In this document: positions 1,326 to 61,547 of the stretch, in pieces
How positions within the stretch are numbered: the first letter of the stretch is position 1
How the letters are laid out: every line of letters starts with the position of its first letter
Made by a program: the position numbers and the translations under genes
Notes under the pieces: model-generated
Told to the model about the DNA's origin: nothing
Database searches by the model: none
The model's input: only the letters and a program-made list of their open reading frames with translations
Assembly: GCA_008330645.1 (NCBI GenBank)
Contig: VLTN01000014.1
Coordinates: 310,001 to 374,000, forward strand
Reading direction: 5' to 3'
DNA length: 64,000 nt
From: Cafeteria roenbergensis
Taxonomy: Eukaryota > Sar > Bigyra > Bicosoecida > Cafeteriaceae

Positions 1326-4300
1326 TCAAGCCTGGTTGTGGCGGTCTTGCGCAAACCAGCCAGCCACAACTGCAGGGCTCTGAAGGCGGCCAGATCGCAC
1401 CGCCTCCAGCACGCGCTTCAGCTGCCGAGGTCCGTACGGCTTGCGCAGCACGGCCGCGAACCCTGCCTCGGGCAGCCGCTCCAGTGTCTCTGCCGTCGTG
1501 GTGCCGGTCGCCGCCACCATCGCACACGGCAGTCCCAGTTCGGCCATGCGGTGGCACAGTCGCTCCCCGTCTAGGCCCGGCATCAGCACGTCGGACAGCA
1601 CCAGGTCAAGCCGCATCTCCTCATGGCCGCCGTCTGCGCTTCCGTGCTCCCCTGCGGCGGGCTGCGACAAGACGCCGTGGCGCTCCAGCCAGCTCTCCAC
1701 CTTGTCGCCGTCGCTCAGCGTCTGCACCTCCGCGCCCAGTCTGCGCAGCATGCGAACCGTCGTGAGCCGGATGGAGGCGTCGTCGTCGACGAAGAGTACT
1801 CTGAGGCCAGCACCTGGCAGGGCCGGTATAGCTTCAACAGCTGCAGGCGGGGCAGCCAGCGCGCCCCCGGCTGCAGCCAGCACCCCACGAATAGGAGCAG
1901 CGACGAGCACGCCGCTCTCGGCTGCTGGAGACGCAGGCTGGTCGCCACTCCCCGCTGTGGGGGCGATGCCCTTGGCACTACTCTCGGCACTAGTAGCACC
2001 GATCGCAGTAGCGATTGCGTTTGCAGTGGCTGGCCGACCAGTCGCTGTCTCCTCGGACGCTGCAGCGCGCCCAGCGTTGCGACTTGCTCTCCGTGCTGCT
2101 CGCGCAGCACGGGATCGAGTCGACAGCCGCCTGCCCGGTGTGGCTCCTCCAGGGCTGCGAGAAGTCGCACTGGGAGAGCCAGACGACGACCCAAGTGAGT
2201 GGCCTGCCCCGACGACAGGCGGGAGAGGCAAGGCAGCCGCCGGGTCGTCGGGAGCTGCCGCATCGCTGCTGCGCTTGTCTGGGCCGTCATGGCTGGAACC
2301 CGAGTCGCTCTCCCGGCTCGGAACTTCGGCCAAAGCGGCAGGCGCAACCACCGCCGCCCACTGGGCGCGCGAAAAGTGAACCCCACGTCCGCTTGAGAAC
2401 GGGCTGGCCAGCGACGGGGGTGCCGGCGGAGGCGCCATCGCCTGCCCGAGAGCGCTGTTCGAGGCATGCTGGCGAGGTCGGGAAGCTTGTCGGCCTGGGC
2501 TCCTCTCCCCAGGGGGTGGGCGTCCCCGGTGCGGAGGTGGGAGTCTCGCCGCAGAATCGAACTGGGGCCGGATGCCGTCATCGCTTGACAGCCGATCGCG
2601 ACTGCTGGCAGCAGACGGCGCGCGCGGCGGTTTTCCAGAACTGGCGTTGCTCTGCGTCCGGCTTGCCGTTCCCACAGACATGCGACCGTGCACATGACTG
2701 CCGGAGCTGTAGCTTGCGCCTCCAAGGTTCGCTCCCGTGGGACCAGCCGGTTGCTTGGTGCTGTGAAACGATGCAGCCGACATCAGGGACGGGCGAAGTC
2801 CAACGTGACTGCTGCCGAGGCTGGCACGAACGCCGTCCGTCGAGTTCCCGGTATAGTCGTGCTGAGCGGCCATCGGCGCGTGCACGGATGAGACCTCCGA
2901 TGGGCCAACCGAGCCGTCAGTTCCGATGCACACTGGGTGGTACCTCCAGCTCGGGTGGGCAACGACATCCAAAGGCAGCCAAAGCTCGAAGATGGCCAAC
3001 CCGCTGGAGCCATTGCACACCGCGCTGGCGCCGGCACCTTGGAGCGCTGACGCAAGCGGGGACAGTACCTGAGAGGCTTTGCGCCCGTCCGCTTGGATCT
3101 GCCTGACCACTCCACCCATCCGCGCAGCTACCTTCTGGGCGCGGTCAAGGCCCAGCCCGGAGGTGCGATGCATTGCTGTTGCTGTCAGCGCAGCTGCTCC
3201 TGCGTCAAACTTTGCGCCAATCAGGGCCGGATCCCTTGCGGACGACTGCCCCGAAGTTCCAGCCCCGGTTGATGTGGAGCTGCGTCTGCCATTGGCACCA
3301 TCGCTAGTTGACCCATGTGACAGTCGCCTTGGATCGGCGTCCGCACACGAGTGCTGTTTCGGTGCCGCGGCATCTCGTGGGCAGGCGGAAGAGGCCACTG
3401 CGCGAATGTCTTCATCTCCAGGGCTCTGTGGAGTCGCAAGTGAGTCCAGCCGAGCTCCGGTATCGAAGATTCGGATGACCAGGCAAGGAGTTGAAGAGCT
3501 GCCCTGCACACCCCGGCTTGCTTGCGGAGACGGCACGACAGTGCTGGGACGCGCAGCGCCCCACCTGCTCGCTGGCCGCGAAGGCCGCCCTCTGGCAATC
3601 GAAGGCGATCGCATTGATCTTCCGGGATTGGACGTCGGCGAGATGAGTGAGTCATCCTCCCCCTCGTTTCCCAGCAGCATGTCTTGCAGGGTAGGCAGAT
3701 TCGCCCGGCCGACCACAGCGACTGGTGCATCGACTGTTCCGCACGAAGTGTCGATTTGGGGCGGAATCCCGGGCAAGGAAGACGATGGCGTTGCGATCAC
3801 GGGACGACGCTGGGCAGGATGCGGCCGGGCCGGAATCGTAGCTGCCGATTGCGAGACGATGGCGAGCCCTGCTTGCTCCCCCAAGAGCGACGGCGAGTAC
3901 CCCGGCTCAAGCTTGCACAGCGGCAGGGTCTCCACGGAACGCCGAGCGAGGCTGCACTCAGTTGGTGGCTTCGGCCCAGCTGCCCCAGGGACATGTCCGG
4001 CGCTGGCCCGTACATTGGACCCAACTGACTCATCGAAGACACCTTGTTCAGTGTTTCGACGCCCGCTGGCAGCAGGAACGCCTTGGTCCCACTGTGGTGG
4101 GCTGCAGCTTGCATCAGGGACAGGAAACACGTCTGCGCTGGCCTCCCCCTCCGTCACCGTCACGGCGATGAAGCCACGCGTCGTGAACGCCGCCGCGCTG
4201 TCCAGCGCCCACCCGACGCACAGCGAGAGCTTCGACGGGTCCAGAACCACGTCGCTCTCCTCCAGTCCGCGCGGCGCGTCCGTCGCGCCCCAGCGCTTGG

Positions 4301-5613
4301 CCAGGGACTCCAGCCCGAACGGACGCTGCACCATGGTCACCACACGCACCCCCGGGTGCGGCGCCACCGCCTCGGCCGCCTCCTCCAGCAGCGCCGCAAG
4401 CGAAACCGCCCGGGGACGCAGCCGCATCCTGCCGGCCTCGAGCAGAGACAGGTCGAGGACCGTGTCCACGAGCTGAGCGAGGGCCTCGGCGGCCGCCTCT
4501 GCTTGGCGCACGTCCTTGCCGATGCCTTTGACGACGCGGCGCACGGCAGCGGGCTGTCCGGGTGTGGCCGCCGCAGCTCTGGCGGCGGCGGGCGCAGCGA
4601 CTTGCGCAGCTGCGGCTGCAGCACCGCCGGCCGACCCGAGAGTCGGGCAGTGCCGGCTCTCGGCCTCCAAGCTCGCGCTGAGCTCCTCAGCGTCTTGCCG
4701 CGCAAACCCGAGCGAGGCCTGCACGATCTGCAGCGGACCCCGCGCCTCGTGAGACAAGTGTGCGACCACGGCGTTCTGGGCGGCCGTCACCGCTTCGAGC
4801 GCCTTGTGCTGGGTCTGCAGCTCGCTGAAGAGGTGGATGCGCTCGGACACCTGCTTCCAAAGGCTGTTGGCGAGGGGCCGCAGGCGGAGGGCCGTCCACG
4901 CCGACACCGCCGCGGCCAGCACCTTGATGCTCATCGTGAACAACGGGATGGAAGTTGCATTCCCGGGGTCGTGGTGGTTGCCCTGTCCCGCCACGGACGA
5001 GAGGCCCATGGCGAAGTGGGAAATGCCGCATAGCATGATGAAGGCCTGCGCAAGGGGAGACAACACGCTCGGGAAAGCGAGGCCGGCTGACACTGTGGCA
5101 TTCCCTCTGTCGCTGGAGCTGTCGCAGTCGGACTTGACACCTTGCTGGCAACGAGGCTGCTGTCACCCTCGGCGCAGCCAAGCGCGAGCCAAGGGCTTCT
5201 TTGCACCGCCACAACATACCTGAAACCAGTGCATGAGAGTAAGCTGCGGGCGCAAGCGGGGGTGCAACCGAAGCAGCGGTGAAGGGCGGGTCTAGCTTCT
5301 GACGCCAAGCCCGAAGGGCGACCCTCCCTGCGGGCGCAGCCACGCTCATCGCCGCTGTCTCACCAGCGCCTTCGGGAGCCCAGTCCGGAACCGCCACTCG
5401 AAGCTGGCCAGCTGGACCGAGATGGCGAGGTATGCCACGGCCAGGGCCATGTCAGAAGTCTGCGACGCGCAGTGTCAGGTGAACAGATGACAATCGCGGC
5501 GGCCCTTCGGCTCTCGGCAGTCCGCCAAAGTTGCGCCGAGCCCGCTTGCGTGTCACTTGCCTCACAATTTCCACGCCTTGAGCAAAGGAGACACCCGCCG
5601 GCCTCGAGGCCAT
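1326..5613 (-). CDS. Ethylene-receptor-like hybrid histidine kinase, copy 1
   Basis: Spliced from four phase-0 exons: 5566-5613, 5364-5459, 5220-5243 and 1326-5045 (1,295 aa). Residues 17-115 form three membrane helices like those of plant ETR1. D19, A25, Y26, I59, C62, H66, K97 and A108 match ETR1 D25, A31, Y32, I62, C65, H69, K91 and A102, the residues for copper and ethylene binding. HisKA follows, with phospho-acceptor H155 in SHEARGPLQ. The ATPase domain has a degraded N-box (WALDSAAAFT, no Asn), then a disordered insertion of several hundred residues, and recognisable G1 (IRIFDTGARL) and G2 (RTSGLGLDRAQKVAARMGG) boxes. The C-terminal receiver has FVDDD, acceptor D1208 in LSDVLMPG and K1258 in RKPYGP. 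There is no GAF domain. The start at 5613 gives phase agreement with the next exon but is the least certain part. Probably a membrane two-component sensor. Confidence 0.85.
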
Positions 5614-5747: not shown

Positions 5748-7726
5748 CTATTGCGGTTGCATGTTGGCAGCCACAACTGCAGGGCTCTGAAGGCGGCCAG
5801 ATCGCACCGCCTCCAGCACGCGCTTCAGCTGCCGAGGTCCGTACGGCTTGCGCAGCACGGCCGCGAACCCTGCCTCGGGCAGCCGCTCCAGTGTCTCTGC
5901 CGTCGTGGTGCCGGTCGCCGCCACCATCGCACACGGCAGTCCCAGTTCGGCCATGCGGTGGCACAGTCGCTCCCCGTCTAGGCCCGGCATCAGCACGTCG
6001 GACAGCACTAGGTCGAGCTGCACTGGGGCGCGGGTCTCACTGGCACTGTCGAGCGCAAGGCTGGGCAAGACGCCGTGGCGCTCCAGCCAGCTCTCCACCT
6101 TGTCGCCGTCACTCAGCGTCTGCACCTCCGCGCCCAGTCTGCGCAGCATGCGAACCGTCGTGAGCCGGATGGAGGCGTCGTCGTCGACGAAGAGTACTCT
6201 GAGCCCGGCACCTGGCAGGGCCGGTGCGCTTTCGGCATCGACAGCTTGGGCATCCCGGGTCGTTGGCTCGCCCAGGCCGCCGGTGCGCCGGGCAGCTCTG
6301 TCAGCCCGGCGCGAGGCACGGTCTGCGCGCGAGCGGCTGGAGCTCCTGATTTCGCCTGCGTCGCCGGCAGCAGTCGCGTCAGGACCAGAAGCCACCGAGG
6401 CCCCCGGCGATGCCATTGGTGGCCGGCCGCGACTTGGTGTGCGCGATCCCCGAACACCGGCATTGGAACCAACCGTCATCGTCGCCGCAGTCACGCTCCC
6501 TGCCCGAACCCTCGTTCGGGGCTGTGAGCTTGGCGAGGACGAGTGAGCGGCCGCTCTGGCGGGGTCCGCGATGCCCCGCTGGTCCGGCGTGGCCGCTGCG
6601 CCTGACACCGAGCGTCCTTCGTCCCGCGCCCCAGCGGCGGCGCTCGACGTCGCCTCCGCTTCTGTTGGCATACTGCTCGAAGCGGCCGTGCCTCTGGACC
6701 ACGCGACCTTGCCAGGCGACCCGGGCGCCGCGGCGGAACCCATGCCCATTGGCGGGGGCACGCCCACGAGCGTGTCAATGCGAGGGCCGGGCGGGAGGCC
6801 GTTGCCCGCGGACTCGACGCCACCTGCGGCACTGCGACCTAAGGTGTCGTCGCTCTTGAAGCGCTCGTGCGACCTGTCCGAGCCGCGGACATCGATGGAG
6901 CCGGAATCCTCCTCGATGTCTGCAAGCCGGCCGGAGCTGGCGTGCGACGCTGCACGCCGTGCCAGTTCGGCGTCCATGGTATCGTCGTCGGCCGTGACCT
7001 CGGCCAGGGCGGACCCAGGGATGGGCTTCGTCTGCCGGAAGCTCTGCGAGCCGGCAGGGTCTCGGTGGGGAAGTGGCCTGTGGCGCGCTGGCCCGACAGA
7101 GCCGCCCGCTTCGGCCTCCTGGCCTTGCGTGTGGGGGCCGGCAGCGGCCGGCGGAGGGCAAGCTGCGTCCAGCCGGTCGCCAGCAGACGCGATGGGAGGC
7201 GCCACGTCCTTGTCCATTGCAACTTGAGTCAGCTGCATGCGGCTGGCCTGCTCTGGCCACGACGTTGCGAAGCCGCCAGAAGCAGAGTGCGAGATGCGCT
7301 CGAGCTCGTTCGACCACGACGGGTTGGCAATGACGTCAATGGGAATCCAAATCTCAAAGACGGCCACCCCTCCAGAGCCATCGGGGCCTGCCTTCGTCCT
7401 GGCCCTGCGCAGTTCGGCCCTGAGCGGGGCCAGCGTAGCCGCCGCCTCCGGTCCGTCCGCCTGGATCTGCCTCACCACGCCGCCCATGAGTGCAGCCACC
7501 TTGTGCGCCCTGTCAAGCCCGAGGCCGGAGGTGCGATGCATTGCCGTGGCTGTCAGCGGGAACCGCTGCCCCCCGCAGTCTGCCAGGCCCTCTGCAACGT
7601 CGATGGAGCCAAGGCGCGGGGTGAAACCCGTTCCAGCTCGGCTCCCCCGGCCCTCGCCCCCCCACGGGCTGAGCGCTCGCCGGCTCCGGGCCCTGCTTGA
7701 GCTGCGTCCCCTGCTCCGAGTCGGGC

Positions 7727-7757
<31 letters not shown>

Positions 7758-10533
7758 ATCGATGCCATCGTCGTCGGCCCGGCTGACGGAGAGCTGCGGG
7801 CTGAGCGCCCCCGATTTGCCGTCCGAAGTTGTTCGCGTGCGCGGGCCGGGGCTCTTGCTCGATGGCGCAGTGGAGTCCAGACGAGAGCCAGAGTCCACCA
7901 CGCGAATGATCAAGCAGCGCCTGCCTCGGGTGGCCGGAGTAGCGCCCTGGCTGGGGGCACTCGCGGGCGCCACAGCGCCCGAGCGACGAGACCAAGGCCA
8001 AAGGCGGGTGCCCCCTCCGCCATGTTCGCGACTCGCCGACTCAGTCCGCTGCATGATCCGGCTCTGCCTGCGGGACCGGGCCACGGAAGCCGCCTCTCCC
8101 CCCGTGTTCCCAGACGCTGCCGCGAGGTGGCGGGGCGACGGCCCGTCGAGGAGGCCTTCCGTCTCGTCGCCCGCGCCCAGAAGCACGTCCTCAAGCGTGG
8201 GGGGCTCTTCGCCCCGACCACGAGAGGCCGCGGCGAGGCCGATCCCCCGGTCTCTCGGGCGGCCGCCCATGGTCGGAGACCGCCTGCCCAGCGGGTCAGC
8301 TGTGGAGTCAGTCACGACGCGCGGCGCGGGCACGCGCGCCCCTGCTGGGAGCGAACGCACCACCGGCATTGCCGTGGCCAGCTGCGCCGTCTGGTCCCCC
8401 GGGTGGAACTGGACGATGGCGGAGCCCTTATCCATCTCCGCGCTGCCCCTGCCCCCGGCAGCCATCGCTTTTCTACCCTTCCACACGCCTCCGGGGCTCA
8501 CGCGCACCGCAGCGCGCGGCTGCCCCACCGGACTTGGAGTTGCTCGCTGCACGGCGGAGGCTTGTCCTCCGCCACGAAGGCGGGCGCCGCGGCCGAAGCT
8601 GGGGGCGGCGGTGATGTCTGCGAGGGAGCGCTCCGCCAAGGCGTGGCTCGGGGAGTTGCTTGGGTGGGACGACCTGCGACTCGCCCCGCGCCGGTTCAGG
8701 CTGGCGTCGATGTTGGCAGAGCGCGGCGGAAGGGCCGCTTCCTGGCCAAGGTGCCCACCGCTGGACAGCGTGGAAGCGCCGGGGGAGTCGAGCAGCTTCA
8801 TCGAGTCCCTGGCTGCACGGGCGAAGGCCTCGCAAGCTTCAGCCTTGGTCATGGACGGCCGTGCCGCCCAGTCGCGCAGCGAGGGAGGCCGGCAGCTCTG
8901 CGTAGGCACGGGGAACACCTCGTCGGGGTCCGCCTCCCCCTCCGTCACCGTCACGGCGATGAAGCCACGCGTCGTGAACGCCGCCGCGCTGTCCAGCGCC
9001 CACCCGACGCACAGCGAGAGCTTCGACGGGTCCAGAACCACGTCGCTCTCCTGCAGGGTCAGGGGCGCGTCCGTCGCGCCCCAGCGCTTGGCCAGGGACT
9101 CCAGCCCGAACGGACGCTGCACCATGGTCACCACGCGCACCCCCGGGTGCGGCGCCACCGCCTCGGCCGCCTCCTCCAGCAGCGCCGCAAGCGAAACCGC
9201 CCGGGGACGCAGCCGCATCCTGCCGGCCTCGAGCAGCGACAGGTCGAGGACCGTGTCCACGAGCTGAGCGAGGGCCTCGGCGGCCGCCTCTGCTTGGCGC
9301 ACGTCCTTGCCGATGCCTTTGACGACGCGGCGCACGGCGGCGGGCTGTCCGGGTGAGGCCGCCGCAGCTCTGGCGGCGGCGGCCGCAGCAACTGCCCCGG
9401 TGGACGCAGGGCGTCCTGCCGCCGTCGCGGCTGCGCCCATCGACACGGCTGAGGACGAAGAAGACGACGACGACGGCACGCCCCCCTGACCGCCCGCCCC
9501 TCCTGCCCTTGCAACTACCGCTTTGGGCCATTTCGCGGACTTGAGGCTCGCGCTGAGCTCCTCAGCGTCTTGCCGCGCAAACCCGAGCGAGGCCTGCACG
9601 ATCTGCAGCGGACCCCGCGCCTCGTGAGACAAGTGTGCGACCACGGCGTTCTGGGCGGCCGTCACCGCTTCGAGCGCCTTGTGCTGGGTCTGCAGCTCGC
9701 TGAAGAGGTGGATGCGCTCGGACACCTGCTTCCAAAGGCTGTTGGCGAGGGGCCGCAGGCGGAGGGCCGCCCACGCCGACACGGCCGCGGCCAGCACCTT
9801 GATGAACACGGTGAAGGTCGGGATGGGGGGGACCGGGTTCGAGGGGTCGGGCGGCGAGACATAGCCAGCGTAAGTCGTCAGCCCCATCGCGAGGTGGGAG
9901 ATGCCGCATAGCATGATGAAGGCCTGCGACGGCGCGCGAGCCAGAGAGGGGGGAAGGAGCGCGTAGCGCCCGCTGGAAGGGCCGCGGCCCCGCCCCGGCG
10001 CGGGCGCGCAGACTGCCCGAGGCGGCTGGGCAAACGTTGCCAGGGTTGTCCCCCGGACGTGGGCGCGTGGCACGCCAAGTTCTTCCCCAGTACCGGCCTT
10101 CTGGGGGGGGCACGAACGCGCGGCTCACCTGGAAAAGGTGCAAAAGCTTGGTCTGCGATGACTTGGCGCGGGAGCGGCTCGGGGGAGGGGCTGGGTGGGG
10201 CGGGGGGGCGGGGCGGGAGAACACTCGTTGAGCAGCAGCCACGACTCGCTTGTCTCCGCGAGACACGCATACGCACCAGGGAGGCCGGCAGCCCGCTCCG
10301 GAACCGGCATTCGAACACCAGGAGCTGCAGCGAGATCGCCAAGTAGGCCAGAAAGAGGACGCCGTCACCGAGCTGCGGGGTCAGGGCAGCGCGGCGCCCG
10401 GGGCGTCAGCGCGAGGTGGGCTTGCAGCGCGAGGGTACGCTCGGGCACGAGGGCGCGTGTCATTGGACCTGCCGCAGCTCGCGCCGGGCCTCACCATCCC
10501 GACCAGCATGCCTGGCGAGGTGGGGACCTGCAT
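5748..10533 (-). CDS. Ethylene-receptor-like hybrid histidine kinase, copy 2
   Basis: A tandem paralogue of the kinase downstream, with exons 10495-10533, 10277-10372, 10129-10152 and 5748-9923 (1,444 aa). Exons 2 and 3 are exactly the same length as in copy 1 (96 and 24 nt). The ETR1-type sensor residues are again complete: D16, A22, Y23, I56, C59, H63, K95 and A106. HisKA H153 lies in SHEARGPLQ. The N-box is degraded in the same way (WALDSAAAFT), and the disordered insertion is longer and includes an aspartate run coded near 7731-7762. G2 reads RTSGLGLDRAHKVAALMGG. The receiver keeps FVDDD, D1362 and K1412. The start at 10533 is a choice: the frame stays open upstream, but no better ATG was seen before a plausible promoter gap. 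Only 134 bp separate this stop from the first exon of copy 1. Confidence 0.85.
7731..7762. repeat. CGT trinucleotide run (aspartate tract)
   Basis: A run of about ten tcg/cgt triplets, read on the minus strand as consecutive Asp codons inside the disordered insertion of kinase copy 2. Copy 1 has no counterpart. It is a likely length-variable microsatellite. Confidence 0.85.
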
Positions 10534-10849: not shown

Positions 10850-12349
10850 TCAGGCAACTGGCAACCCCGAAGACTTGCGCACTCCGTCCAAGAAGGGCTC
10901 CAGCCACACGGATACGCCAGAGGCAACGGAAATGCCGGCGGTGTCGGCCACCGAGGCGGCGCCGAGGTAAAACTCCCGCAAGTGCGGCGGGGACTCGGCC
11001 CTGATTTTGCGAAATGCGTTCACGTACACTGCCCCTCCCAGCAACCCCTCAAACAGCACGAGAGCGAACATGATCCACGAGGACCCGATGAACTGGGTGC
11101 AGCTCTGAATGATGAACACCACCAGCATGATGGTCTGGCCGAGGGGCATCGGCCACAGCGTGTTGATCGGCAGCAGCTGCCCCGACGACCGGGAAATGAA
11201 GACCCCCGCCTGGTACACGAGCTGCGCGCGCTTGTAAAAGTCGTGCTTGGGAAGGCCATCATTGGGGAAGGACAGCGTCCCGGCTACTCCTGAATTGATG
11301 GTGTACTCGGCAAAGTACACCACGAACAGCCAGGTCATGACAGGCAGCAGAGATCGCAGCGCCGTCAGCCGCTGCGCCGTCGTCATGGTCTTGGTGGCGT
11401 CACACGACTCCATCCCCCTTGTCCCCGCCGGCTCAGCCAAGCCCTTCTTGGTGCCGTGCCCGGGGGGGTTGACAAGCCGCGTCGTGTCGCCTTGCCGCGG
11501 CCGCCCCACCATCGACGCCCCAGGCCCGTCCGAGCCCTCCGTGTGCTCCAACTCCAGCCCGGGCCCCACGCTCCCACTGGACGCGTGCTGGTGCAGCTTG
11601 CCCGCGCCCGCCACGGGGGCGCCCGCGGCGTACGGCGACTCATCGGGGACGCCGTCGCTCGCGGAGGACGGCGAGGGCTCGGGCTCAGCGAAGACCGTCC
11701 CTGGGCCCAACGCCACAAAGTAGCAAAGGACGTACATCAGGGGGAAGATGAGGCCGATGAGGAGCGTCGTCCTGTCGGAGATGCCAAACGCGGACGTGAA
11801 CATCACGTAGAAGCCTGCTCCCGCCACGCCCGCGAAGCCCGTCCCGGAGGACCAGGCAGTGACGGCAGACTCTTTGTAGAAGGCGAGCATAGCCAGGCTT
11901 GTGACCTCACCCCAGCCAGAGGAGATGGCTGCGCAAACCACGCCGAGCAACTTGAGCTCCACTGGCTCGCAGAGCGCTGCCAGCAGAAAGGACGCCGCGC
12001 TGAATGCACCACAGAGCGCATACCGAACGCTGTACGGCATGTAGTGCGCCCAGAATGGGGCCGTCGGCTTGATGACGATGACTGGCAAAATGTCCGCCGC
12101 AAGCACGATTCCTGCCCCGCCGGCGATGATGGCCTCGGCGGCGGTGAGGAACACCACGTACCCCACGTTGTTGGTAAGCCCCATCACCCACCACGCCGCC
12201 CAGTTCCGCCAAGTCTCTCCGCTCGAGTCCGCGGGTTCTGCCTCGGGCATGGCGAGCAGCGAGTCGGTCGACTCGTCGGTGACCCCCATCCCGTCCCCCG
12301 ACGCGCCGCGCCTCGCGTATCCGTCCACCACGGCCTCGCGGTCCGCCAT
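10850..12349 (-). CDS. CLN3: CLN3 (battenin) family lysosomal membrane protein
   Basis: A single exon from ATG 12349, 499 aa (human CLN3 is 438). The first 55 residues are acidic and predicted to be cytosolic. Multiple membrane helices follow, with CLN3 hallmarks: WWVMGLTNNVGYVVFLTAA, then VLAADILPVIVIKPTAPFW, SGWGEVTSLAML, and near the end REFYLGAASVADTAGISVA. A disordered loop of about 100 residues splits the helices in the middle, as in other CLN3 proteins but longer. CLN3 acts in the lysosome or vacuole membrane in pH, basic amino-acid and glycerophosphodiester handling (family knowledge). The frame stays open upstream as far as 13771, but that part overlaps the opposing SET gene and shows no homology, so I start at the Met just before the acidic leader. 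Confidence 0.9.
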   Translation of the reverse strand: MADREAVVDGYARRGASGDGMGVTDESTDSLLAMPEAEPADSSGETWRNWAAWWVMGLTNNVGYVVFLTAAEAIIAGGAGIVLAADILPVIVIKPTAPFWAHYMPYSVRYALCGAFSAASFLLAALCEPVELKLLGVVCAAISSGWGEVTSLAMLAFYKESAVTAWSSGTGFAGVAGAGFYVMFTSAFGISDRTTLLIGLIFPLMYVLCYFVALGPGTVFAEPEPSPSSASDGVPDESPYAAGAPVAGAGKLHQHASSGSVGPGLELEHTEGSDGPGASMVGRPRQGDTTRLVNPPGHGTKKGLAEPAGTRGMESCDATKTMTTAQRLTALRSLLPVMTWLFVVYFAEYTINSGVAGTLSFPNDGLPKHDFYKRAQLVYQAGVFISRSSGQLLPINTLWPMPLGQTIMLVVFIIQSCTQFIGSSWIMFALVLFEGLLGGAVYVNAFRKIRAESPPHLREFYLGAASVADTAGISVASGVSVWLEPFLDGVRKSSGLPVA

Positions 12350-25614: not shown

Positions 25615-26178
25615 CGTTCACACGGGCGAGGCGCAAAGAGTGCCGGGCACGGGTCGGAGAGCGCCGGCGGCGGACGCCGAGCAGGCTCTCGGGCTTCAAT
25701 GTCTGCCGCGCGGGCGCGGACTGCGGCTCTGCCAGGCGCGGCCCCTGCCGCGACTGCTCCCGCGGCGGGATTGGCAGCGCACGATCGCAGACCGGATGCT
25801 CGCCACAACCGTCGGAGCCGGCCCTCAGTCAGGGTCGCACGAAACGGCGGGAGCCAGGCGAAGCGCCCCGAACAACAATTCTCAATTGCAATCGTGCGGG
25901 CAGCGAGGAGGCTGCCTCCGCAAACCGGAACGGCAATCTTGCCGCCTCGGCGTTGGCCGGGTTCGGCGTGTTGTGCGAGCGGCGCGTGGTCCATTGCACC
26001 CGGGGTGAGCCTGTGAGGGGGGCTCAACGCGCGACTCGCGCAGCAATAGCGCGACCCTGCAGAGCTGCCGTCGACGCGGCTGAGCAGTCGATCGAGCGCC
26101 TCGCCGGCCAACTGAGCGCCCGCAGCAGCCGCGTGCACAGCAGAGTGGGAGGCTGCAGAGTGGCAAGGTTTGGCTGCG
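25615..26178. promoter_or_regulatory. Divergent ETFA / TMTC intergenic region
   Basis: 564 bp between divergent start codons, so it must contain both promoters. The ETFA frame has no convincing extension into it. I saw no TATA box or repeat. Confidence 0.5.
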
Positions 26179-29100
26179 ATGGTCGCGCGGTGGGAGGCGC
26201 TGGGCCTGTGCGGCATTGCGCTGGTGACGGCTGCCGCGTACTGGCCAACGCTGGATGCTGGCTTCGTGTGGGACGACCGCGCCGCCATCCTGGGGAACTT
26301 CGATGTGCTGGGCCAGACGTCTTGGAGCGAGATGATGAAGCACGACTTTTGGGGTCAGGACATTGGCGCGAAGGACAGCCACAAGAGCTTCAGGCCAGTC
26401 ACGACGACAACATTTCGGATCGAGCACTGGTTGGAGGGAGGCGGCGACTCGCCAAACGCCAGAATGATGCATGCGACGAATCTGCTTCTGCACATTGTGG
26501 CCACCTTGACCGTCCACGAAGCTGCTCGGGCCATGGGGGCGACCTCTGCATCGGCGCTCGCAGCCGCTCTGCTCTTTGGCGTGCATCCAGTGCACGTTGA
26601 CGCCGTTGCGAGCCTGGTTGGCCGCGCGGAGGTTCTCGCTGGAATTTTCTTTGCCCTGTCCGTGGCGTGCTATGCCCGGTCCATCGCACCCCGGCGAGTG
26701 TTCGCAAGCCCGGCAGCCAATCGTGACGAGTCCGCCGCCGCGTGCTCCGGCTGGCCGGCGCTTGCCAGGGGCGCCGTGAGCAGCGCGTGGGTGGCTGCAG
26801 CCCTGCTGTGTATGACGGCCGGGCTGCTCAGCAAGGAAGTGGGCATCACGGCTGTGGCAGTGTTCCTGGCGCTCGAGGCGGTGCCGCCACCCCACCCCGA
26901 CGACACTGCCACTGCGATGAGGGTGCAAGCACGCCTGTCCGCCACGGCTCGTGGCGCCGGGGGCAGCCTGCCTCACAAGGGGGCTGGCCGGGACATTGTG
27001 GCGCCAGAAGCGAGCCTCCCTCGACCGGCTTCCGAGTGGCGCGGCGGGGTCGCCGGGGCGCTGCGGTGGGCCCTGTCTGGCCTCGCACGCCCCGGCGCCT
27101 GGGCCCGGCTTGTCCCTTCCCTGGCAGCAGCCGCCCTTATGGTGCTCTGGCGGTTCGGCACGCACGCCAGCGACGGCATGTATAAGTGGCGTCCGCTCGA
27201 GAACAGGCTGGCCCACATGCCACGGAGCGTTGGCCTCGCGCTCAGCACTGCTATGACGCATGCCGAGTCCGTCAGGCTCATTCTCTGGCCCACGGGCATG
27301 GCCTTCGACCACGGGCTGGGCTGCAGCGACTTGGTATTCAACTTCACGGACCCTCGCAACCTGCTCACGGTCGCAGTCTACAGCCTGCTGCTGGCCATCT
27401 TGGCCCTCTCGCTCGCATTTCGGCGCCGGGCCGCTCTTTTGGGCATGGCCGTGTTCGTAGCTTCGTACGCCCCTGCAGCAAACGTGCTGGTGTTCGTCGG
27501 ACTGGAAGTGGCAGAGCGGGTGATGTACATCCCGAGCGCCGGCCTGATCATCGCTCTGGTGGATTTGGCTCCTGTGGTTGTCCGCTGGGCAGCCTCCGGC
27601 GCGCCGCTGGCAATCGCACGCTCGGCCCTGGGTTGCGAGGCGACTCCGTCGGCAGAGGCCGGCGACGAGGGCGCTAGCCGGCAGCACCGACTCCTGGAGG
27701 CTCTTGGCCAGTGCGCTCCGCCACACTCGTCTCCTGCACGTCAAGATGAGGCCGGACACGGCGCAGCTGGCGCCTGCAGCGACTTCGAAGTCCTGGCTGC
27801 CGAGGCAGAGGCGTGCATTGAGTCCAGCGACGCCGGCGACCCGGATCGCGCTCCAGTCTCCGCCGCAGCTGCCGTTGGATCGTCGTGGGCACGGCGCCTG
27901 GCCTCGCCCTTGGCAATGCTCGTCGTGGCCGTCAGCGCGGTCCTGGCTGCAGCGACGTCCAGCCAGTCCATGGTTTGGAAGGACGAGCCAGCCCTGTTCC
28001 TGAACGGCATTCTGACCTGCCCCGGCCTTGGCGTCAAGGCTGCAAACAACTACGCGTACCTACTCGTCACCAGCCCTGAGGCAACAAACGCGACATTCAA
28101 CGACGCCGAGGCTCTTCTCAGGGGGGCTATCTACGTGTGGCCTATGCACGCGTCTGCCTACCTCAACCTCGCGCTGCTCTGGAGCAAGCGGCCGCCGGCC
28201 GTCAAGGCGGCAATCGCGCCTGATGGCAGCGACGCGGCCGCCGGTGCTGCCCGCGCCAGCAAGCTTCCTGCCAGCATTGTTGAACGCTTCGCCTGCGGGC
28301 CGCCCAGCGTCGACGGGCTGGAAGCCACGGCACGCCGGCTCAACGCCAGCGGCGAGGAGGCCGCCGTGGGACCCCTGTGGATGAGCGCCGTGAGCTTGCA
28401 CGCCACCCCGTCCCAGACTCTGTTCTGGCTCGCCAAGTACTACCTTCTCAAGGCATCTTCCAAGGAGCTGCCTCCACCGGCGTTCACGCCCGAAAAGGCA
28501 ATCAGCGCGCGGGAGCGGGGAATGCCTGAGGGCTCTATCGACGTTGGGAAGGGAGAGGGGTTCACCTCGGCGAGCGTGGAGCTGAGCGCGTTGGACATGG
28601 AGCTTGGGGGCGGGGCCATGGTCGCATGGGCGCTGCGCTTCGTGATACAAGGAGAGAGGAAGGCTTCGGAGGTGCTGGTCAGGGCAGGAACGGCGCTCGA
28701 TCACGGCATCGTGCCTGCGTCCGACTTTAGCTACTTGAGGCGGCACTCTCTTCCGTACCCGGCCGCGTTCTCGCTGGGCGCGGCCAATGACATTCGAGCG
28801 CGCGTGTCCGCGGGGAAACTGGGTGCGCGGCTGATCGAGGAGGCCACCGAGTCTGGCTGCATGGCCATGTTCCCCATTGCTTGCTTTCGATGGCGCGCGC
28901 TCGCCGCATCACTCCAGGGCAACTTTGAGCTGGCGGCGCACGACTCGCAGCAGTGCATTCGGCTTGGAGACGACCACGCCGCGCACGCCGCCGGCATGCT
29001 GCGGTTTTCCGGCGATCTGCCGTCCCAAGGCAAGTCAAAGCAGGTGGCAGAGTCAGCCAGCGACGACGTGCGCGCGTGCCGGGTATTGGCCGCCGGCAGC

Positions 29101-29481
29101 CTTGTGGCACTGGGCCGCGTTGCCGAGGCAGAACAGGCCCTTCAGACAATTCTGGCAGGGCTGTCCGCGGCCCACCTGTCAGACCTCGCCGGGGAAGTCC
29201 GACGAATCGGGCTCACGCGTCTCAGCGCGGAGCTGGCACACCACGTCACAACCATGCCCGGCTTCGAGACGAGCGCTTCGGCGGCCAACAACGCCGGATT
29301 CGCGCTCGAACACGAGGGACGTGCAGCCGAGGCTGCAGCCGTGTACCGTGCCGCTCTGCAGCTGCAGCCGCCGCCGGCCGTGGAGGCAGTGCTCAGGATG
29401 AACCTTGCACGTGCTGAACAGACCGCCAGCCAGGCCCTTGCGGCGGTCCGAGCGCACGAGGAGGCGAAGGCAGACGTGTAG
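26179..29481 (+). CDS. TMTC-like: TMTC-type protein O-mannosyltransferase with C-terminal TPRs
   Basis: A single exon of 1,100 aa. I start at ATG 26179 (MVARWEALGLCGIALV), since the only in-frame codon just before it is TTG. It has the GT-C topology of TMTC1-4. After the first helix comes the luminal acidic motif GFVWDDRAAILGN, then SHKSFRPVTTTTFRIEHWL and HATNLLLHIVATLTVHEAA. Further helices include AAALLFGVHPVHVDAVASL. The DUF1736 segment reads MAFDHGLGCSDLVFNFTDPRN. The last third holds TPR-like helices (ANNAGFALEHEGRAAEAAAV; YRAALQLQ). Animal TMTCs sit in the ER membrane and O-mannosylate cadherin folds; the substrate here is unknown. A long disordered stretch separates the membrane part from a late hydrophobic segment (AMLVVAVSAVLAAATSS). 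Confidence 0.9.
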   Translation: MVARWEALGLCGIALVTAAAYWPTLDAGFVWDDRAAILGNFDVLGQTSWSEMMKHDFWGQDIGAKDSHKSFRPVTTTTFRIEHWLEGGGDSPNARMMHATNLLLHIVATLTVHEAARAMGATSASALAAALLFGVHPVHVDAVASLVGRAEVLAGIFFALSVACYARSIAPRRVFASPAANRDESAAACSGWPALARGAVSSAWVAAALLCMTAGLLSKEVGITAVAVFLALEAVPPPHPDDTATAMRVQARLSATARGAGGSLPHKGAGRDIVAPEASLPRPASEWRGGVAGALRWALSGLARPGAWARLVPSLAAAALMVLWRFGTHASDGMYKWRPLENRLAHMPRSVGLALSTAMTHAESVRLILWPTGMAFDHGLGCSDLVFNFTDPRNLLTVAVYSLLLAILALSLAFRRRAALLGMAVFVASYAPAANVLVFVGLEVAERVMYIPSAGLIIALVDLAPVVVRWAASGAPLAIARSALGCEATPSAEAGDEGASRQHRLLEALGQCAPPHSSPARQDEAGHGAAGACSDFEVLAAEAEACIESSDAGDPDRAPVSAAAAVGSSWARRLASPLAMLVVAVSAVLAAATSSQSMVWKDEPALFLNGILTCPGLGVKAANNYAYLLVTSPEATNATFNDAEALLRGAIYVWPMHASAYLNLALLWSKRPPAVKAAIAPDGSDAAAGAARASKLPASIVERFACGPPSVDGLEATARRLNASGEEAAVGPLWMSAVSLHATPSQTLFWLAKYYLLKASSKELPPPAFTPEKAISARERGMPEGSIDVGKGEGFTSASVELSALDMELGGGAMVAWALRFVIQGERKASEVLVRAGTALDHGIVPASDFSYLRRHSLPYPAAFSLGAANDIRARVSAGKLGARLIEEATESGCMAMFPIACFRWRALAASLQGNFELAAHDSQQCIRLGDDHAAHAAGMLRFSGDLPSQGKSKQVAESASDDVRACRVLAAGSLVALGRVAEAEQALQTILAGLSAAHLSDLAGEVRRIGLTRLSAELAHHVTTMPGFETSASAANNAGFALEHEGRAAEAAAVYRAALQLQPPPAVEAVLRMNLARAEQTASQALAAVRAHEEAKADV

Positions 29482-31071: not shown

Positions 31072-33425
31072 ATGGCAGCGGCTGCTCCGCTCTCGTCGAT
31101 GCGCGTGGTGGACGACCCGGGCGAGCTGTACACTCTGGTGGAACGGCTGGGCAGTGGGTGAGCGCTTCGGCGACCTCGGCTGCGCTGCGGGCGCCTGCGG
31201 CCTGCGGAGTGCCAGCCACGCCCCACGCGAGCCCGCCGCCCGATCCTGGCCCCTCGACCCGCAGAACCTACGGCGACGTGTTCTGCGCCCTCGACAAGCG
31301 CCGGGACAAGATGGTGGCCATCAAGGTGCTTGCTCTCGAGTCCGACGACGAGCTGTCCGCGATTCAGGCCGAAATCGACATCCTCAAGCAGTGCGATAGT
31401 CCGTATGTCGTCCAGTACTATGACTCGTTCTTCACCGGAGGCGAGCCATGGGTGCGTTTGGATGCCAGGCTGCGCGCTTGCGACGGGTCTCCGATTCGCG
31501 CTGCCCTGCGCGACCATGCTGGTTGGCCAGACTGGGCCGCGATCTGCTTGTCGCGCGCCCCATGTCCGCCCGCGGCGCCCCCTGCAGATCATCATGGAGT
31601 ACTGTGCATTGAGCTCCCTTGCGGATCTGATGGCTGTGACCGAGCGGACGCTCTCCGAGGAGCAGCTCCGGGACGTGTGCGCCGGCATTTGTCTGGGCCT
31701 TGACTTTCTGCACTCCAAGAAGCCACGCATCGTCCACCGCGACCTCAAGGCCGAGAACGTGCTTCTCAAGACTGACGGCACCGTGAAGCTTGTTGACTTT
31801 GGCGTGTCGACGCTGCTGCAGCACACGGCGTCGCAGCGCAACACCATGACAGGCACGCCGCACTGGATGGCACCGGAGGTGTTCATGCGTTCCGCCTACG
31901 GCCCACCGTGCGACATCTGGTCACTAGGCATCACTGCCATCCAGCTGGCGGAGGGAAACCCCCCTTACGGCGACGTGGTGCACATGCGCAAGGTCATGCT
32001 CATGATCCTGCGGCGCGAGCCGCCCGCGCTCGCTGACCCTTCCCTGTGAGCCTCGAGCTGGAGTCCGGTGGGGACATGCAACGCCACACCGAGCGCGCGT
32101 CTTCTGCCGTGGGGCCGTTTGGTCGCGGTGCCGCCCGCGCAGCGCCGCAGGCCCGTTTATGGTTTCATGTTGCGCGCCACTGCCCACCGCCATCACTGCT
32201 TGCCTTGCATCGCGTTTGCTGAGCCCCCATGTGCAGTTGGAGCCCCGAACTGTCGGACTTCCTGCAGCGCTGCCTCCAGAAGAAGCCTGGAGATCGTCCC
32301 ACGGCGCGCGAGCTTCTCGAGCACCCGTTCGTCAAGGAGGCTGTGGACCGTATCAAGGCCGGCGGTGGCCGCTCGGCCCTGCTGGAGAGCCTCGCGCAAG
32401 ACGCCCTGCCCCTGGTGGAGGCCGCCCGGCGCGAGGACGCGGAGATGGAGGAGGAGGAGGAGGAAGGGGGGGAGGAGGCGGAGGCCGCCGAGGATGACAC
32501 TGCCGGAGGAGACGCGGCGGAGGGCGACGCCGAAGCCGGTGACGGGGACGCCGACGAAGGTGCGGTGCCCGCTCCCAAGGCCGCTGCCCCGGCCCGGGCG
32601 CCTGTCGGTACTATGCGCGCTCGAACCATCCGCTACCCCGATGGCACTGTCATTGCCAACGGGACGCTTCGGCTTTACCGCGGGACCCTCCGCCGTGCTG
32701 AGGATGCCATGGGCGAGCCCGTTCCGTCGCCGCCTGCGTCAGCAGCAGCAGCCGGGCGCGGCGGCGCTCCTGGGCACCGCAGCGAGGGCACCGGCGTGGT
32801 GGTTCACTCAACGGGGCCGAGACAGGGCGTGCCCGCTGCGGCAGCTAGCGGTGGCCCAGCGGCAGGGGGTATGCCCTCGTTCATGCGCGATTTGCACATC
32901 GCACGCGCACCGGCAGCCCCAGCTGCTTCGGCCGAGAAGGAGGCCGAAGGGCCCCTCACGACGCAAGAGGAGGACGATGCAGAGCAGGAAGACGGCGCAG
33001 CAGAGGCAGGCGGTGACGTCCTGGAGCTGCTCCCCGAGGAGCAAGTCAGCAGCCTGGACGACGAGAGCCTGCGCGACAGATTGGCAGCCGTGGGCGAGGA
33101 ATTCCGGACGCGACTGACGGAGCTCTCGGAGGCCCACCGCGCTGCCAAGGCGCAGCTGACTGCGGAGATGGACAGGAGAGGCATCGCGCACGCGGACTCG
33201 CCGGCTGACGAAATGCTGGGCGAGGGGCATGGCGACGAGGGATTCCCGCAGGACGAGTACATGGAGGGAGGCCACGACGACGAGCAGGGCTACGAGGAGG
33301 ACGACGGTGGCTTCGGCGAAGAGGCCAACTACCTGGACGCGGGCATGGAAGCCGACGCCGGCGTGGCGAACACGTACCGCTACAGCTCGACCGGCACTGG
33401 CGGCGGCTTGTACGGGGGCTACTGA
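31072..33425 (+). CDS. MST/Hippo-like: MST1/2 (Hippo) family STE20 kinase with SARAH domain
   Basis: Four exons (31072-31157, 31265-31451, 31588-32045, 32237-33425) join to give 639 aa. The kinase domain occupies about residues 22-285: glycine loop LGSGTYGDVFCALD (split by intron 1), VAIKVL with the catalytic Lys, IVHRDLKAENVLL, VDFGVST, and the activation loop RNTMTGTPHWMAPEVF with the autophosphorylation Thr typical of MST kinases. An acidic, disordered linker follows. Residues about 512-558 look like a SARAH helix (LDDESLRDRLAAVGEEFRTR, then LTELSEAHRAAKAQLTAEMD), the dimerisation module of MST, RASSF and SAV. The tail is acidic and Tyr/Gly-rich. In animals MST phosphorylates LATS/NDR kinases with MOB1. 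Presence of SARAH separates this from generic STE20 kinases. Confidence 0.9.
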
Positions 33426-33871
33426 GCCGGACCCAGGTGCAGCCCGCGCCCGCGATTCGACCCCAGCATGTGTGTGTTTGTGCTTGCTTGCCACCAACCT
33501 TGCCATGGGCTCTTGCGGGAGCGAGTCAGGGCCTTGCAATTCAGCCGCCGGCCCAGCTCCTTGCAAGAGCGCAAACATTGACGCGTCCCATGAGTTGCGT
33601 CGCAGAGCTGTTGCGCGTTCGCCAAGGAGCATGGCCGGATGCAAGCTGCGAGGGCGCCTCGGGGACGCGGGGCTCGTGCGTGTCTACCCGCTGCGCTGTG
33701 GGGGGGTGGCTGGGCGCGCGCAAAGGTCCAGAACTGGGCAACAACGGGGTGCACTGGCGCGGCGGAGCAGTCACAGCCACTTCCGCCTCTGCCGCACCAT
33801 CCGGCGCGCGCCGGCGAGCCACTCCCCGAGTCTTCGGACGGTCGCTTGGCCGCCCCCCCAGCGTCGGAAGC
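33426..33871. other. Intergenic, MST kinase to ATAD3
   Basis: Tandem plus-strand gap of 446 bp with the ATAD3 promoter. Nothing further could be supported on either strand. Confidence 0.45.
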
Positions 33872-35860
33872 ATGTCCAGCTTTGATGCCGAAGCCCTTGA
33901 GCGGGCCGCCAAGGCGGCCCGCGAGCTCGAGAGCTCCAAGCACGTAAAGGCGGCCGTGGAACTGTCCAAGCGCGAGCAAAACGTCAAGGTCCGCGAGTAT
34001 GACGCCCGCAAGGCGGAGGCAAGTGCCGATGCCGAGAAGGCCAAGGCTGCGCAGATCCAGATCGCCGCTGAAGAGCGGCGCAAGACCATCGCCTTCGAGC
34101 GCAAGGCCAAGGAGGTGAGACGCAGTTGTCGCGCCCGACCGCTCAAGCTTGGTCACGTGACGACGGCGCGCCCGTCTCCGCTCACGCGTCGCATTCCGCG
34201 AGGTGTGCTCCACTGCCTCGCGTCCGCGAGGCGGCACCCATGGGTGCCGGAAGGTGGTCCGTCTGTGGGCGCCGCGGAACCCTGGTACGGCCGCGCTGCG
34301 CCAGCTTCGCCTTCTCCACCCCTCTTGCCGCGTCCGGCACCCGTGCGGCTGTGTGTTTGTTCTGGAGCGTTGCAGGAGCTGATGTCGCGCCAGCAGCAGA
34401 TGGAGCGTCAGCGCATGCGCGAGCAGGACCAGCTGTCTCGCCAGCGCGAGCAGGACATGCTGGAGGCAAAGAAGCAGGCCGACATGGAGCGCGACGCCCG
34501 CCGCCTTCAGATGGAGCAGCAGATTCAGGAGGAGCGCCTGGAGGGCGCCCGCCGCCGGGCGGAGGCCGAACGCGCCAACATCCGCGCCAGGGCCATGGCC
34601 GAGGCGGAGGGCCGCATCCTGGAGCAGCGCAAGAACGAGGACATCCACGCTCGCGACATTCAGCGTCGCTCCGAGGCCAAGGCAGCGGAGCTCCGCGGTG
34701 CCATCCAGGAGGCCTTCTCCCAGCTGTCCAGCACTCTGGGGAGCTACATCAAGGACAGCACCGCCCTTCGCAACACCGTCTTCGTTGGCACCGCGCTCGC
34801 CGTGGGCGTATACGGCGTGCGCGAAGGCTCGCGCGTGATCGGCCGCGTGGTGGAGCGCCGGCTGCTCACCCCTGCCCTTGTTCGTGAGACCTCGCGCACA
34901 GCCGGCACCTTCGGCTTGCGCCAGCGCATGAAGCGCGCGCTCGGCATGCTCCCCGCTGAGGAGGTTGGCCTGGACGGCATCGTTCTGGAGGACAAGCTCT
35001 CGTCGCGCATCGTGGAGACCGCCTCGGCGACGACGAACACGCGCCGCAACGGCGCTCCGTTCCGCCACATGCTCTTCTACGGCCCGCCCGGCACCGGCAA
35101 GACCATGGTGGCCAAGCGGCTCGCGCGCACTTCGGGCCTCGACTACGCCGTCATGTCTGGGGGTGACATCGGCCCTCTCGGCAAGGACGGCGTGACCGAG
35201 CTGCACAAGCTGCTGGACTGGGGGGAGACGAGCAAGCGCGGCCTGCTGCTGTTCATCGACGAGGCAGACGCCTTCCTCTCCAGCCGCTCGCGCTCTGCCA
35301 TGTCCGAGGACCACCGCAACGCGCTCAACGCCCTGTTGTACCGCACCGGTGAGGCGTCGCGCTCGCTCATGCTGGTCCTGGCCACCAACCGTCCAGGAGA
35401 CCTCGATGCTGCCGTGACCGACCGCGTGGACGATGCCGTGCTCTTCGGCTTGCCGGATGCCGCCGGGCGGGAGGCCCTCGTGCGCGTGTACTTTGAAAAG
35501 TTCGTTGTGCGGGCGGGCGAGGACGCCCCCAGGCGGCTGATGGGCCTCCTCCCCGCTGCCCGCGCGTCGAAGATCGAGATCGGCGAGGGCTTCACGGACG
35601 AGTACTTCGCGGAGCTGGCAGCGCGCACGGCTGGCTTCTCGGGCCGTGCCATCTCGAAGCTCATGCTCGGCGTGCAGGGCGCCGTGTATGGCCGCGGAGA
35701 GCCCACCCTGACCCTGGAAATCATGGAGGATGTTGTGCAGCGCAAGCTTGCCGAGTTCGACGAGCGCAGGCGGTTGGCAAAGACGGACTACACCGACTCG
35801 GCCAGCGAAGCCGTGACGGGGACAGCTGCCGATGCCGCTGCCCGCAGGTCGTCTGCTTGA
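33872..35860 (+). CDS. ATAD3: ATAD3 mitochondrial AAA+ ATPase
   Basis: Two exons, 33872-34114 and 34376-35860, joined in phase 0 to give 575 aa (human ATAD3A about 590-630). The N-terminal half is the family's charged coiled coil, beginning MSSFDAEALERAAKAARELE and continuing through MSRQQQMERQRMREQDQLSR. A short hydrophobic segment follows (TVFVGTALAVGVYGV) that would cross the inner membrane. The AAA+ module has Walker A FYGPPGTGKTMVAKRLA, Walker B LLLFIDEADAFLSSR and sensor 1/arginine-finger region VLATNRPGDLDAAVTDRVDD. ATAD3 bridges inner and outer mitochondrial membranes and supports nucleoids, cholesterol and cristae organisation in animals. The single intron interrupts the coiled coil and stays open in frame, so read-through would go unnoticed without the splice signals. 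Confidence 0.95.
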   Translation: MSSFDAEALERAAKAARELESSKHVKAAVELSKREQNVKVREYDARKAEASADAEKAKAAQIQIAAEERRKTIAFERKAKEVRRSCRARPLKLGHVTTARPSPLTRRIPRGVLHCLASARRHPWVPEGGPSVGAAEPWYGRAAPASPSPPLLPRPAPVRLCVCSGALQELMSRQQQMERQRMREQDQLSRQREQDMLEAKKQADMERDARRLQMEQQIQEERLEGARRRAEAERANIRARAMAEAEGRILEQRKNEDIHARDIQRRSEAKAAELRGAIQEAFSQLSSTLGSYIKDSTALRNTVFVGTALAVGVYGVREGSRVIGRVVERRLLTPALVRETSRTAGTFGLRQRMKRALGMLPAEEVGLDGIVLEDKLSSRIVETASATTNTRRNGAPFRHMLFYGPPGTGKTMVAKRLARTSGLDYAVMSGGDIGPLGKDGVTELHKLLDWGETSKRGLLLFIDEADAFLSSRSRSAMSEDHRNALNALLYRTGEASRSLMLVLATNRPGDLDAAVTDRVDDAVLFGLPDAAGREALVRVYFEKFVVRAGEDAPRRLMGLLPAARASKIEIGEGFTDEYFAELAARTAGFSGRAISKLMLGVQGAVYGRGEPTLTLEIMEDVVQRKLAEFDERRRLAKTDYTDSASEAVTGTAADAAARRSSA

Positions 35861-37459: not shown

Positions 37460-37530
37460 GTCCTCATAGTCTAGTGGAAGGATGCGACTTTCCGGCGGTC
37501 GCAGCGAGGGTTCGATTCCCTCTGAGGACT
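37460..37530 (+). tRNA. trnR-CCG: tRNA-Arg (anticodon CCG)
   Basis: A full cloverleaf of 71 nt. The acceptor stem is GTCCTCA with TGAGGAC and all seven pairs match, followed by discriminator T at 37530. The D arm is GTCT/GGAT around an AGTGGAA loop. The anticodon stem CGACT/GGTCG closes the loop TTCCGGC, giving anticodon CCG (reads CGG). The variable loop is 4 nt, and the T arm is GAGGG-TTCGATT-CCCTC. An internal B box, GGTTCGATTCC, lies at 37509-37519. No intron and no encoded CCA. Pol III would transcribe it. Confidence 0.95.
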
Positions 37531-37537: not shown

Positions 37538-37858
37538 GTCTTTGTTTCGTCCTCTGCGAGAAATCGCTGATGCTGCAGTGACGTCAGGCAATGCGTGTGC
37601 CCCCCGCCAGGATGGCGTCGCCTGCCCGCGCGCAGCAAAGCGAGCACTGAAAGGGAGGTGCGTTCAACCTTGCTTGGTCCAGCTCTTCGCGGCTCTGGGA
37701 GGGATGCGTCGCGAGGGGCAAACTTGTTGTTGAAGCTGGCAGAGCGAGGATTGGCAAGGCGGCAGCAGCCTTCAGCCCCGGCTGCCCCAAGGCGCGCCGA
37801 GCAAGCACACGGCCGCAGGGACAAGCAGCGGCAAGGCCGTGGGACCTCGCTGCCGGAG
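37538..37858. other. Intergenic, tRNA to acyltransferase
   Basis: Promoter and leader of the next gene. Its frame is open back to 37595, but only through GTG/TTG-type codons and non-conserved sequence. Nothing else seen. Confidence 0.45.

Positions 37859-61516: not shown

Positions 61517-61547
<31 letters not shown>

Follow-up and report, generated by a model that had tools for sequence, protein, structure and literature searches.

An ethylene-binding-type sensor domain in a tandem pair of histidine-kinase-like genes of Cafeteria roenbergensis

Does the flagellate Cafeteria roenbergensis carry a receptor of the ethylene-receptor type, and, if so, what might it sense and how might it signal? 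The question is raised by a 64,000-nucleotide stretch of contig VLTN01000014.1 (assembly GCA_008330645.1, positions 310,001 to 374,000), here called the window, in which a sequence-only reading had assigned an ethylene-binding domain (EBD) to one gene. Analysis at the sequence level confirms an EBD in both copies of a tandem gene pair. Each N-terminus is a predicted three-helix membrane domain homologous to the EBD of ETR1 and of its cyanobacterial and proteobacterial relatives. The original assignment therefore stands for copy 1, and its limitation to that copy falls, since copy 2 carries the same domain.

The window has a GC content of ~69%; a value of ~70% is given for C. roenbergensis (PMC6972860). 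Upstream of the pair is a gene for a CLN3 (battenin) family protein (10850-12349, minus strand, E 7.8e-103). Elsewhere in the window are genes for HSP90 (60171-62405, plus strand, Pfam HSP90 E 3.3e-226), the ribonucleotide reductase large subunit (45641-47893, minus strand, barrel domain E 2.1e-217), an ATAD3-type AAA ATPase (33209-35860, plus strand, ATAD3_N E 6.2e-42), a DUF3712 protein with three matched stretches (53061-56147, plus strand, whole protein E 1.3e-32), an Acyltransferase-3 domain protein (37571-39604, plus strand, E 1.9e-22) and a TMTC-like O-mannosyltransferase fragment (26116-29481, plus strand, DUF1736 E 5.1e-07). A tRNA-Arg (CCG) at 37460-37530 on the plus strand is the sole match in the window to Rfam (gathering scores) and ARAGORN, and no rRNA was found in the window at Rfam gathering scores.

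The two genes lie head to tail on the minus strand (copy 1, 1326-5613; copy 2, 5748-10533), and 134 nt separate the copy 2 stop from the copy 1 ATG. Each is modelled as three short exons followed by a long one:

5566..5613 (48 nt), minus strand, copy 1 exon 1: MASRPAGVSFAQGVEI; ATG, GT donor, phase 0; the least certain exon
5364..5459 (96 nt), minus strand, copy 1 exon 2: EBD helix 1 with D19, A25, Y26, I29 and S30 (S30 is ETR1 Pro36 by alignment)
5220..5243 (24-nt microexon), minus strand, copy 1 exon 3: LTLMHWFQ, start of helix 2
1326..5045, minus strand, copy 1 exon 4: remaining EBD (I59, C62, H66, K97, S104, A108), DHp, degenerate ATPase with inserts, receiver, stop
10495..10533, minus strand, copy 2 exon 1: MQVPTSPGMLVGM; the least certain exon
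10277..10372 (96 nt), minus strand, copy 2 exon 2: EBD helix 1
10129..10152 (24-nt microexon), minus strand, copy 2 exon 3: TKLLHLFQ
5748..9923, minus strand, copy 2 exon 4: remaining EBD, DHp, degenerate ATPase with inserts, receiver, stop

Joined, the four exons encode 1295 aa in copy 1, without an internal stop, and 1444 aa in copy 2. All six introns, three per copy, are GT-AG and in phase 0. The spliced proteins match Pfam ETR1_N (PF25487; curated cut-off 27) at 42.7 bits in copy 1 (E 7.1e-11) and 44.7 bits in copy 2 (E 1.6e-11), and exon 4 by itself gives 14.9 bits in either copy, below the cut-off. The sequence-only reading had proposed that three short exons join the long exon to form an EBD in copy 1, and had suggested a profile search of the assembled N-terminus as a check; phase, splice sites, open frame and a score above the cut-off all bear it out. 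Its range for the domain, 5046-5613, was misplaced, as this holds only exons 1-3 and three introns, and the CxxxH motif and helix 3 are in exon 4, below 5046. Nor does most of the domain lie in tiny exons, as had been thought: exons 1-3 supply 56 of the first 115 residues, about half. The spliced N-terminus of copy 1 has no match at E <= 1 in NCBIfam, nor, by sequence, among PDB chains. A Kyte-Doolittle scan, which reports hydrophobicity only, shows three hydrophobic regions per copy, as in ETR1.

For residue comparisons, the window EBDs were aligned with ETR1 and 97 distinct prokaryote EBDs. The latter derive from 101 loci, which yielded 100 EBDs (L071 had none over threshold), identical ones being counted once. 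It should be pointed out that the set is biased, in that L001-L039 were found via patterns from the query and L040-L101 came from further searches. In the phylum of a betaproteobacterial locus, 398 genomes were searched and 29 had a match; a locus exists for 30 of its 32 listed matches. In the phylum of a cyanobacterial locus, 117 genomes were searched and 37 had a match; here loci were taken for 30 of the 80 listed matches, for the most part the top match in each genome.

Copy 1 D19, A25, Y26, I29, I59, C62, H66, K97 and A108 align with ETR1 D25, A31, Y32, I35, I62, C65, H69, K91 and A102, and both copies keep ETR1 D25, A31, Y32, I35, I62, C65, H69, K91, S98 and A102. The ETR1 positions listed as conserved in the sequence-only reading (D25, Y32, C65, H69, A31, I62, A102) are thus found in both copies. 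Ethylene binding by ETR1 involves seven residues, a set that D25 and Y32 reportedly complete, as Wang et al. are said to have found in 2006. Among the seven, C65, H69, I35, P36 and I62 are described as essential for binding (PMC6586836). Six of the seven, D25, Y32, I35, I62, C65 and H69, are kept in both copies, one short of the full set; Pro36 is Ser in each (S30 in copy 1). Asp25, Cys65 and His69 form the ETR1 copper site (PMC12643061), and D, C and H are present at these positions in copies 1 and 2. The predicted copper site is complete, and the predicted ethylene pocket is altered at one position, Pro36. The sequence-only reading had described residues that hold Cu(I) and ethylene in ETR1 as conserved; the residues that it named hold, and what it left out is the change of Pro36 to Ser, the degenerate ATPase and the published EBD receptors of other non-plant eukaryotes, such as labyrinthulomycetes and free-living amoebae.

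The prokaryote EBDs have Pro at the Pro36 position in 86 of 97 cases, a share that may be raised because the loci are mostly the best match per genome, so that weak, divergent cyanobacterial EBDs are under-represented; the remaining 11 have Ala (5), Ser (4), Val (1) or Leu (1). Asn replaces D25 in 6/97. S98 is reported to have a moderate effect on binding, and S98 and P110 to be essential for signal transmission (PMC6586836). At the Pro110 position, where 87 of the 97 prokaryote EBDs have Pro, the alignment places an Asn in both window copies, though a Pro stands three positions before it. The Cys found near the N-terminus in plant and cyanobacterial receptors has no counterpart in exon 1, and the helix-2 His and helix-3 Lys lie 9-10 residues further apart than those of ETR1. 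Two proteobacterial EBDs, L003 and L042 (genome of L001), have Asn for the copper-site Asp25 and Ser for Pro36, with Cys and His kept.

The reading that we favour, with moderate confidence, is that the window encodes two tandem hybrid histidine-kinase-type receptors, in which an N-terminal EBD would serve as a Cu(I)-dependent sensor of a small ligand, probably ethylene, and the core as a pseudokinase or phosphotransfer scaffold. Pro36 to Ser, Pro110 to Asn, the lack of a Cys in exon 1 and the longer helix 2-3 stretch count against it. Perhaps the domain descends from an EBD and has lost ethylene binding, and senses Cu(I), redox or another small ligand (CO, NO, other alkenes); this is possible, with a real if minor chance of being right. 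D, C and H are kept, yet Pro36 is Ser in both copies, as would fit such a change of ligand, and the prokaryote EBDs with Ser at Pro36 (4/97) or Asn at D25 (6/97) indicate that the pocket drifts in nature. I35, I62, Y32, A31, A102 and S98 are nevertheless all kept, which speaks for ethylene. In addition, ethylene binding in yeast is reported for two mushroom receptors with 2/3 essential residues (PMC9603746), and therefore a single change need not abolish binding.

The putative receptors continue into a signalling core, with the following features located in the sequence:

4665..4874, minus strand, copy 1: linker and first part of DHp, phospho-acceptor motif SHEARGP; HisKA below cut-off
4155..4250, minus strand, copy 1: ATP-binding domain, degenerate N-box (Asn replaced); from sequence blocks and profile alignment
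3138..3188, minus strand, copy 1: ATP-binding domain G2 box, SGLGL kept; from sequence blocks and profile alignment
1371..1805, minus strand, copy 1: receiver domain (DD, D, T, K present), Pfam Response_reg E 4.3e-13
5778..6203, minus strand, copy 2: receiver domain (DD, D, T, K present), Pfam Response_reg E 1.9e-12

The DHp (SHEARGP) comes after the EBD via a short linker in both copies, and exon 4 gives no GAF match at E <= 1 in copy 1 or copy 2. HisKA scores 18.3 and 18.4 bits, both below the cut-off of 26.9. The receivers are intact (VDDD, SDVLMPG, KPYG), and the phospho-acceptor His and receiver Asp and Lys are present. The ATP-binding domain is different in character. Exon 4 as a whole has no HATPase_c match at E <= 1; after removal of inserts the domain reaches 24.3 bits in copy 1 (profile positions 2-110 of 111) and 23.2 bits in copy 2 (positions 2-109 of 111), below the cut-off of 26.4. 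In the profile alignment, the N-box of copy 2 is WALDSAAAFT vs the profile's NLlgNAiKFt, with both Asn positions replaced, and its D-box is DSGSR vs DtGvG, with the Asp kept and the second Gly replaced; its G2 box retains SGLGL. Copy 1 shares this N-box and G2 box, and its D-box, read from the sequence, is DTGAR. The N-box block and D-box are separated by 224 residues in copy 1 and 344 in copy 2, and the D-box and G2 box by 84 and 105, respectively. The degeneracy of the ATPase is drawn from the profile alignment, with a profile from 9 prokaryote ORFs, and from the Pfam scan. Two box patterns were dropped, a strict N-box pattern that missed 15/36 prokaryote ORFs and a looser one that found both boxes in only 9/36.

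Could these be active hybrid histidine kinases, with an ATP site that is divergent but working? We consider this doubtful. Retention of the G2 box SGLGL, the D-box Asp, the DHp His and the receiver Asp would be consistent with activity, as would the near-identity of core parts between the copies. Yet of the N-box Asn, two-Gly D-box and G2 box that mark an active enzyme, only the G2 box is kept: the N-box has lost both Asn and the D-box its second Gly, and HATPase_c stays below its cut-off even with the inserts taken out. As the Mg-coordinating Asn is lost and the ATP-binding domain is split by long inserts, there is probably no self-sufficient kinase. No ATP-driven autophosphorylation would be expected, and the receptor may pass on or remove phosphate or act as a scaffold.

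Under the favoured reading of an EBD receptor with a pseudokinase or scaffold core, a mechanism involving copper, ethylene and an output may be proposed from the homology, residues, splice signals, domain order and degeneracy found in the DNA. In the membrane, a dimer would hold Cu(I) by means of D19, C62 and H66, and ethylene or a similar small pi-ligand would bind the copper. The change would travel via helix 3 straight into the DHp dimer, no GAF having been found. The core is more likely a pseudokinase, in which the DHp His and intact receiver would form a phosphotransfer or phosphatase module fed by another kinase; alternatively, the output may be that of a ligand-gated scaffold, as in plant subfamily-2 receptors.

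Because exon choice can be made to fit, a splice-free scan was run, in which all stop-to-stop fragments of 20 aa or more from six frames of the whole window (n=1037) were compared with a prokaryote-only EBD profile. The top four of the 1037 fragments are the helix-1 and helix-2/3 pieces of both copies, on the minus strand and in the correct order. In copy 1 these score 14.9 bits (helix 1, the best of 1037; E 0.0009) and 8.5 bits (helix 2/3), and in copy 2, 8.5 bits (helix 1) and 11.6 bits (helix 2/3; E 0.0095); the two 8.5-bit pieces have E-values of 0.086 and 0.084. The fifth-best fragment of the window scores 2.6 bits; among the controls, the top fragment reaches 6.3 in the reversed window (E 0.53) and 3.6 in five triplet shuffles. 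Singly, the two 8.5-bit pieces are only modestly above the best control; order and strand add weight, and the set of four is telling. Against the same profile the spliced proteins score 42.7 (copy 1) and 41.0 bits (copy 2), which drop to 31.8 (-10.9) and 28.6 (-12.4) when the 24-nt exon is left out. Part of an EBD can thus hide in a 24-nt microexon, and ORF-based searches overlook such pieces.

The splice signals themselves are uniform. Exons 2 (96 nt) and 3 (24 nt) have the same size and phase in both copies, and all six acceptors are CGCAG, a context found at 443 of the 7850 AG dinucleotides of the window (5.6%). The 5' region of copy 2 has 28 AG and, on the minus strand, just three CGCAG, which are its three acceptors; that of copy 1 has 39 AG and four CGCAG, of which three are acceptors. 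No probability is quoted for this, because the sites are not a random draw. Translation from the ATG without splicing reaches a stop after 53 aa in copy 1 and 50 aa in copy 2. Thus, that the exons were picked to fit and the true N-terminus has no EBD is very improbable: the gene models come from sequence alone, exon 1 is poorly conserved between the copies and the weaker two pieces stand at 8.5 bits each vs 6.3 for the best control, but the scan taken together, the equal exons 2 and 3, the uniform acceptors and the early stops in unspliced reading all argue against an artefact.

The two copies are unevenly alike. DNA identity is 98.6% in the DHp block, 97.6% from DHp to N-box, and 91.0% and 99.2% in the first and second parts of the receiver. 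The sensor exons are much less similar, with 61.5% in exon 2 and 54.2% in exon 3. Exon 1, which holds no key residue, is 48% identical in a forced alignment, and the introns (42-46%) and inter-domain linkers (mostly 40-52%) are no more alike than unrelated DNA put through a forced alignment. Over the 32 codons of exon 2, the third position differs in 17 and the amino acid in 13; D, A, Y, I and the Ser common to both copies are unchanged. Most simply, this pattern suggests repeated gene conversion of parts of the core, together with long separate evolution of the sensor exons. Alternatively, the gene may have been duplicated recently and its 5' part then replaced.

In an EBD tree of 100 rows and 90 columns, copies 1 and 2 join (100/100), and they stand beside one proteobacterial EBD, L064 (99/83), in a tree where long branches are flagged, the bootstrap is not settled and ETR1 is the only other eukaryote. 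No origin is drawn from it, because of the 90 columns, the long branches, the unsettled bootstrap and the sole other eukaryote. A virus origin was considered separately; a scan of viral contigs with the window/ETR1 alignment gave 39 pattern matches and no confirmed relatives, in a short-pattern search that can miss distant ones.

How do the window copies compare with known EBD receptors? The plant receptors of subfamily 1 (ETR1, ERS1) and subfamily 2 (ETR2, EIN4, ERS2) likewise have an EBD with copper-site residues followed by a histidine-kinase-like core, and ETR1, ETR2 and EIN4 also end in a receiver. Subfamily 2 is described as having a diverged kinase domain (PMC9603746). Unlike the plant receptors, the window copies have Ser for Pro36, a longer helix 2-3 stretch and very long inserts within the ATPase, and lack the N-terminal Cys pair; the GAF that follows the EBD in the plant ethylene receptor family was detected in neither copy.

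With the bacterial kinases SynEtr1, GeiEtr1 and AzoEtr1 the window copies have the EBD and histidine kinase in common and share six of the seven key residues; all seven are reported for the bacterial proteins, which have PAS and/or GAF between EBD and kinase (PMC6682694, PMC11819568). The window copies differ from these in having introns and a degenerate ATPase, and in that no GAF was found. The locus L006, recovered by the genome scan, has a 655-codon ORF at the coordinates given for GeiEtr1 (PMC6682694). EBD receptors are known from other bacteria such as Azospirillum (PMC11819568), and have been published for free-living amoebae, labyrinthulomycetes, Capsaspora, diatoms and brown algae (PMC6944256, PMC7700396). 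Early-diverging fungi have ETR homologues that are said to keep all crucial residues, and some of these (Conidiobolus, Basidiobolus) have truncated kinase parts (PMC5285503). The EBD-bearing histidine kinases of these non-plant eukaryotes are of the same kind as the window pair, as compared by description only. For bicosoecids or similar flagellates, a literature search that took in few subscription papers, and which is no proof of absence, found no EBD receptor among the papers listed, and the covered parts of one of these (PMC5447177) mention none for ethylene.

Since EBD receptors have been published for plants, bacteria, fungi and protists, the parts, and to a large extent the way they are combined, have been seen before. 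The predicted proteins stand out by their tandem arrangement, by Ser at the Pro36 position, by having no detected GAF and by the inserts that split a degenerate ATPase. The copies belong with the EBD proteins; they are not placed among demonstrated ethylene receptors, because one of the seven residues is missing and ligand binding is a prediction.

The window pair is an informative further case of a known receptor type, and no new kind of protein. As a compact pair of natural EBD variants, with copper site intact, Pro36 replaced and the kinase apparently disabled, it could help to decide if Pro36 is required in receptors from outside plants, if a cell of this type senses ethylene, and if receptor pseudokinases have had more than one origin. 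It is a speculative and rather unlikely thought that a plastid-less, bacterivorous flagellate senses ethylene, perhaps from nearby cyanobacteria or algae, by means of a receptor pseudokinase pair. If so, the sensing exons would diversify while gene conversion holds the core constant, such that different ligands or concentrations may be fed into one output.
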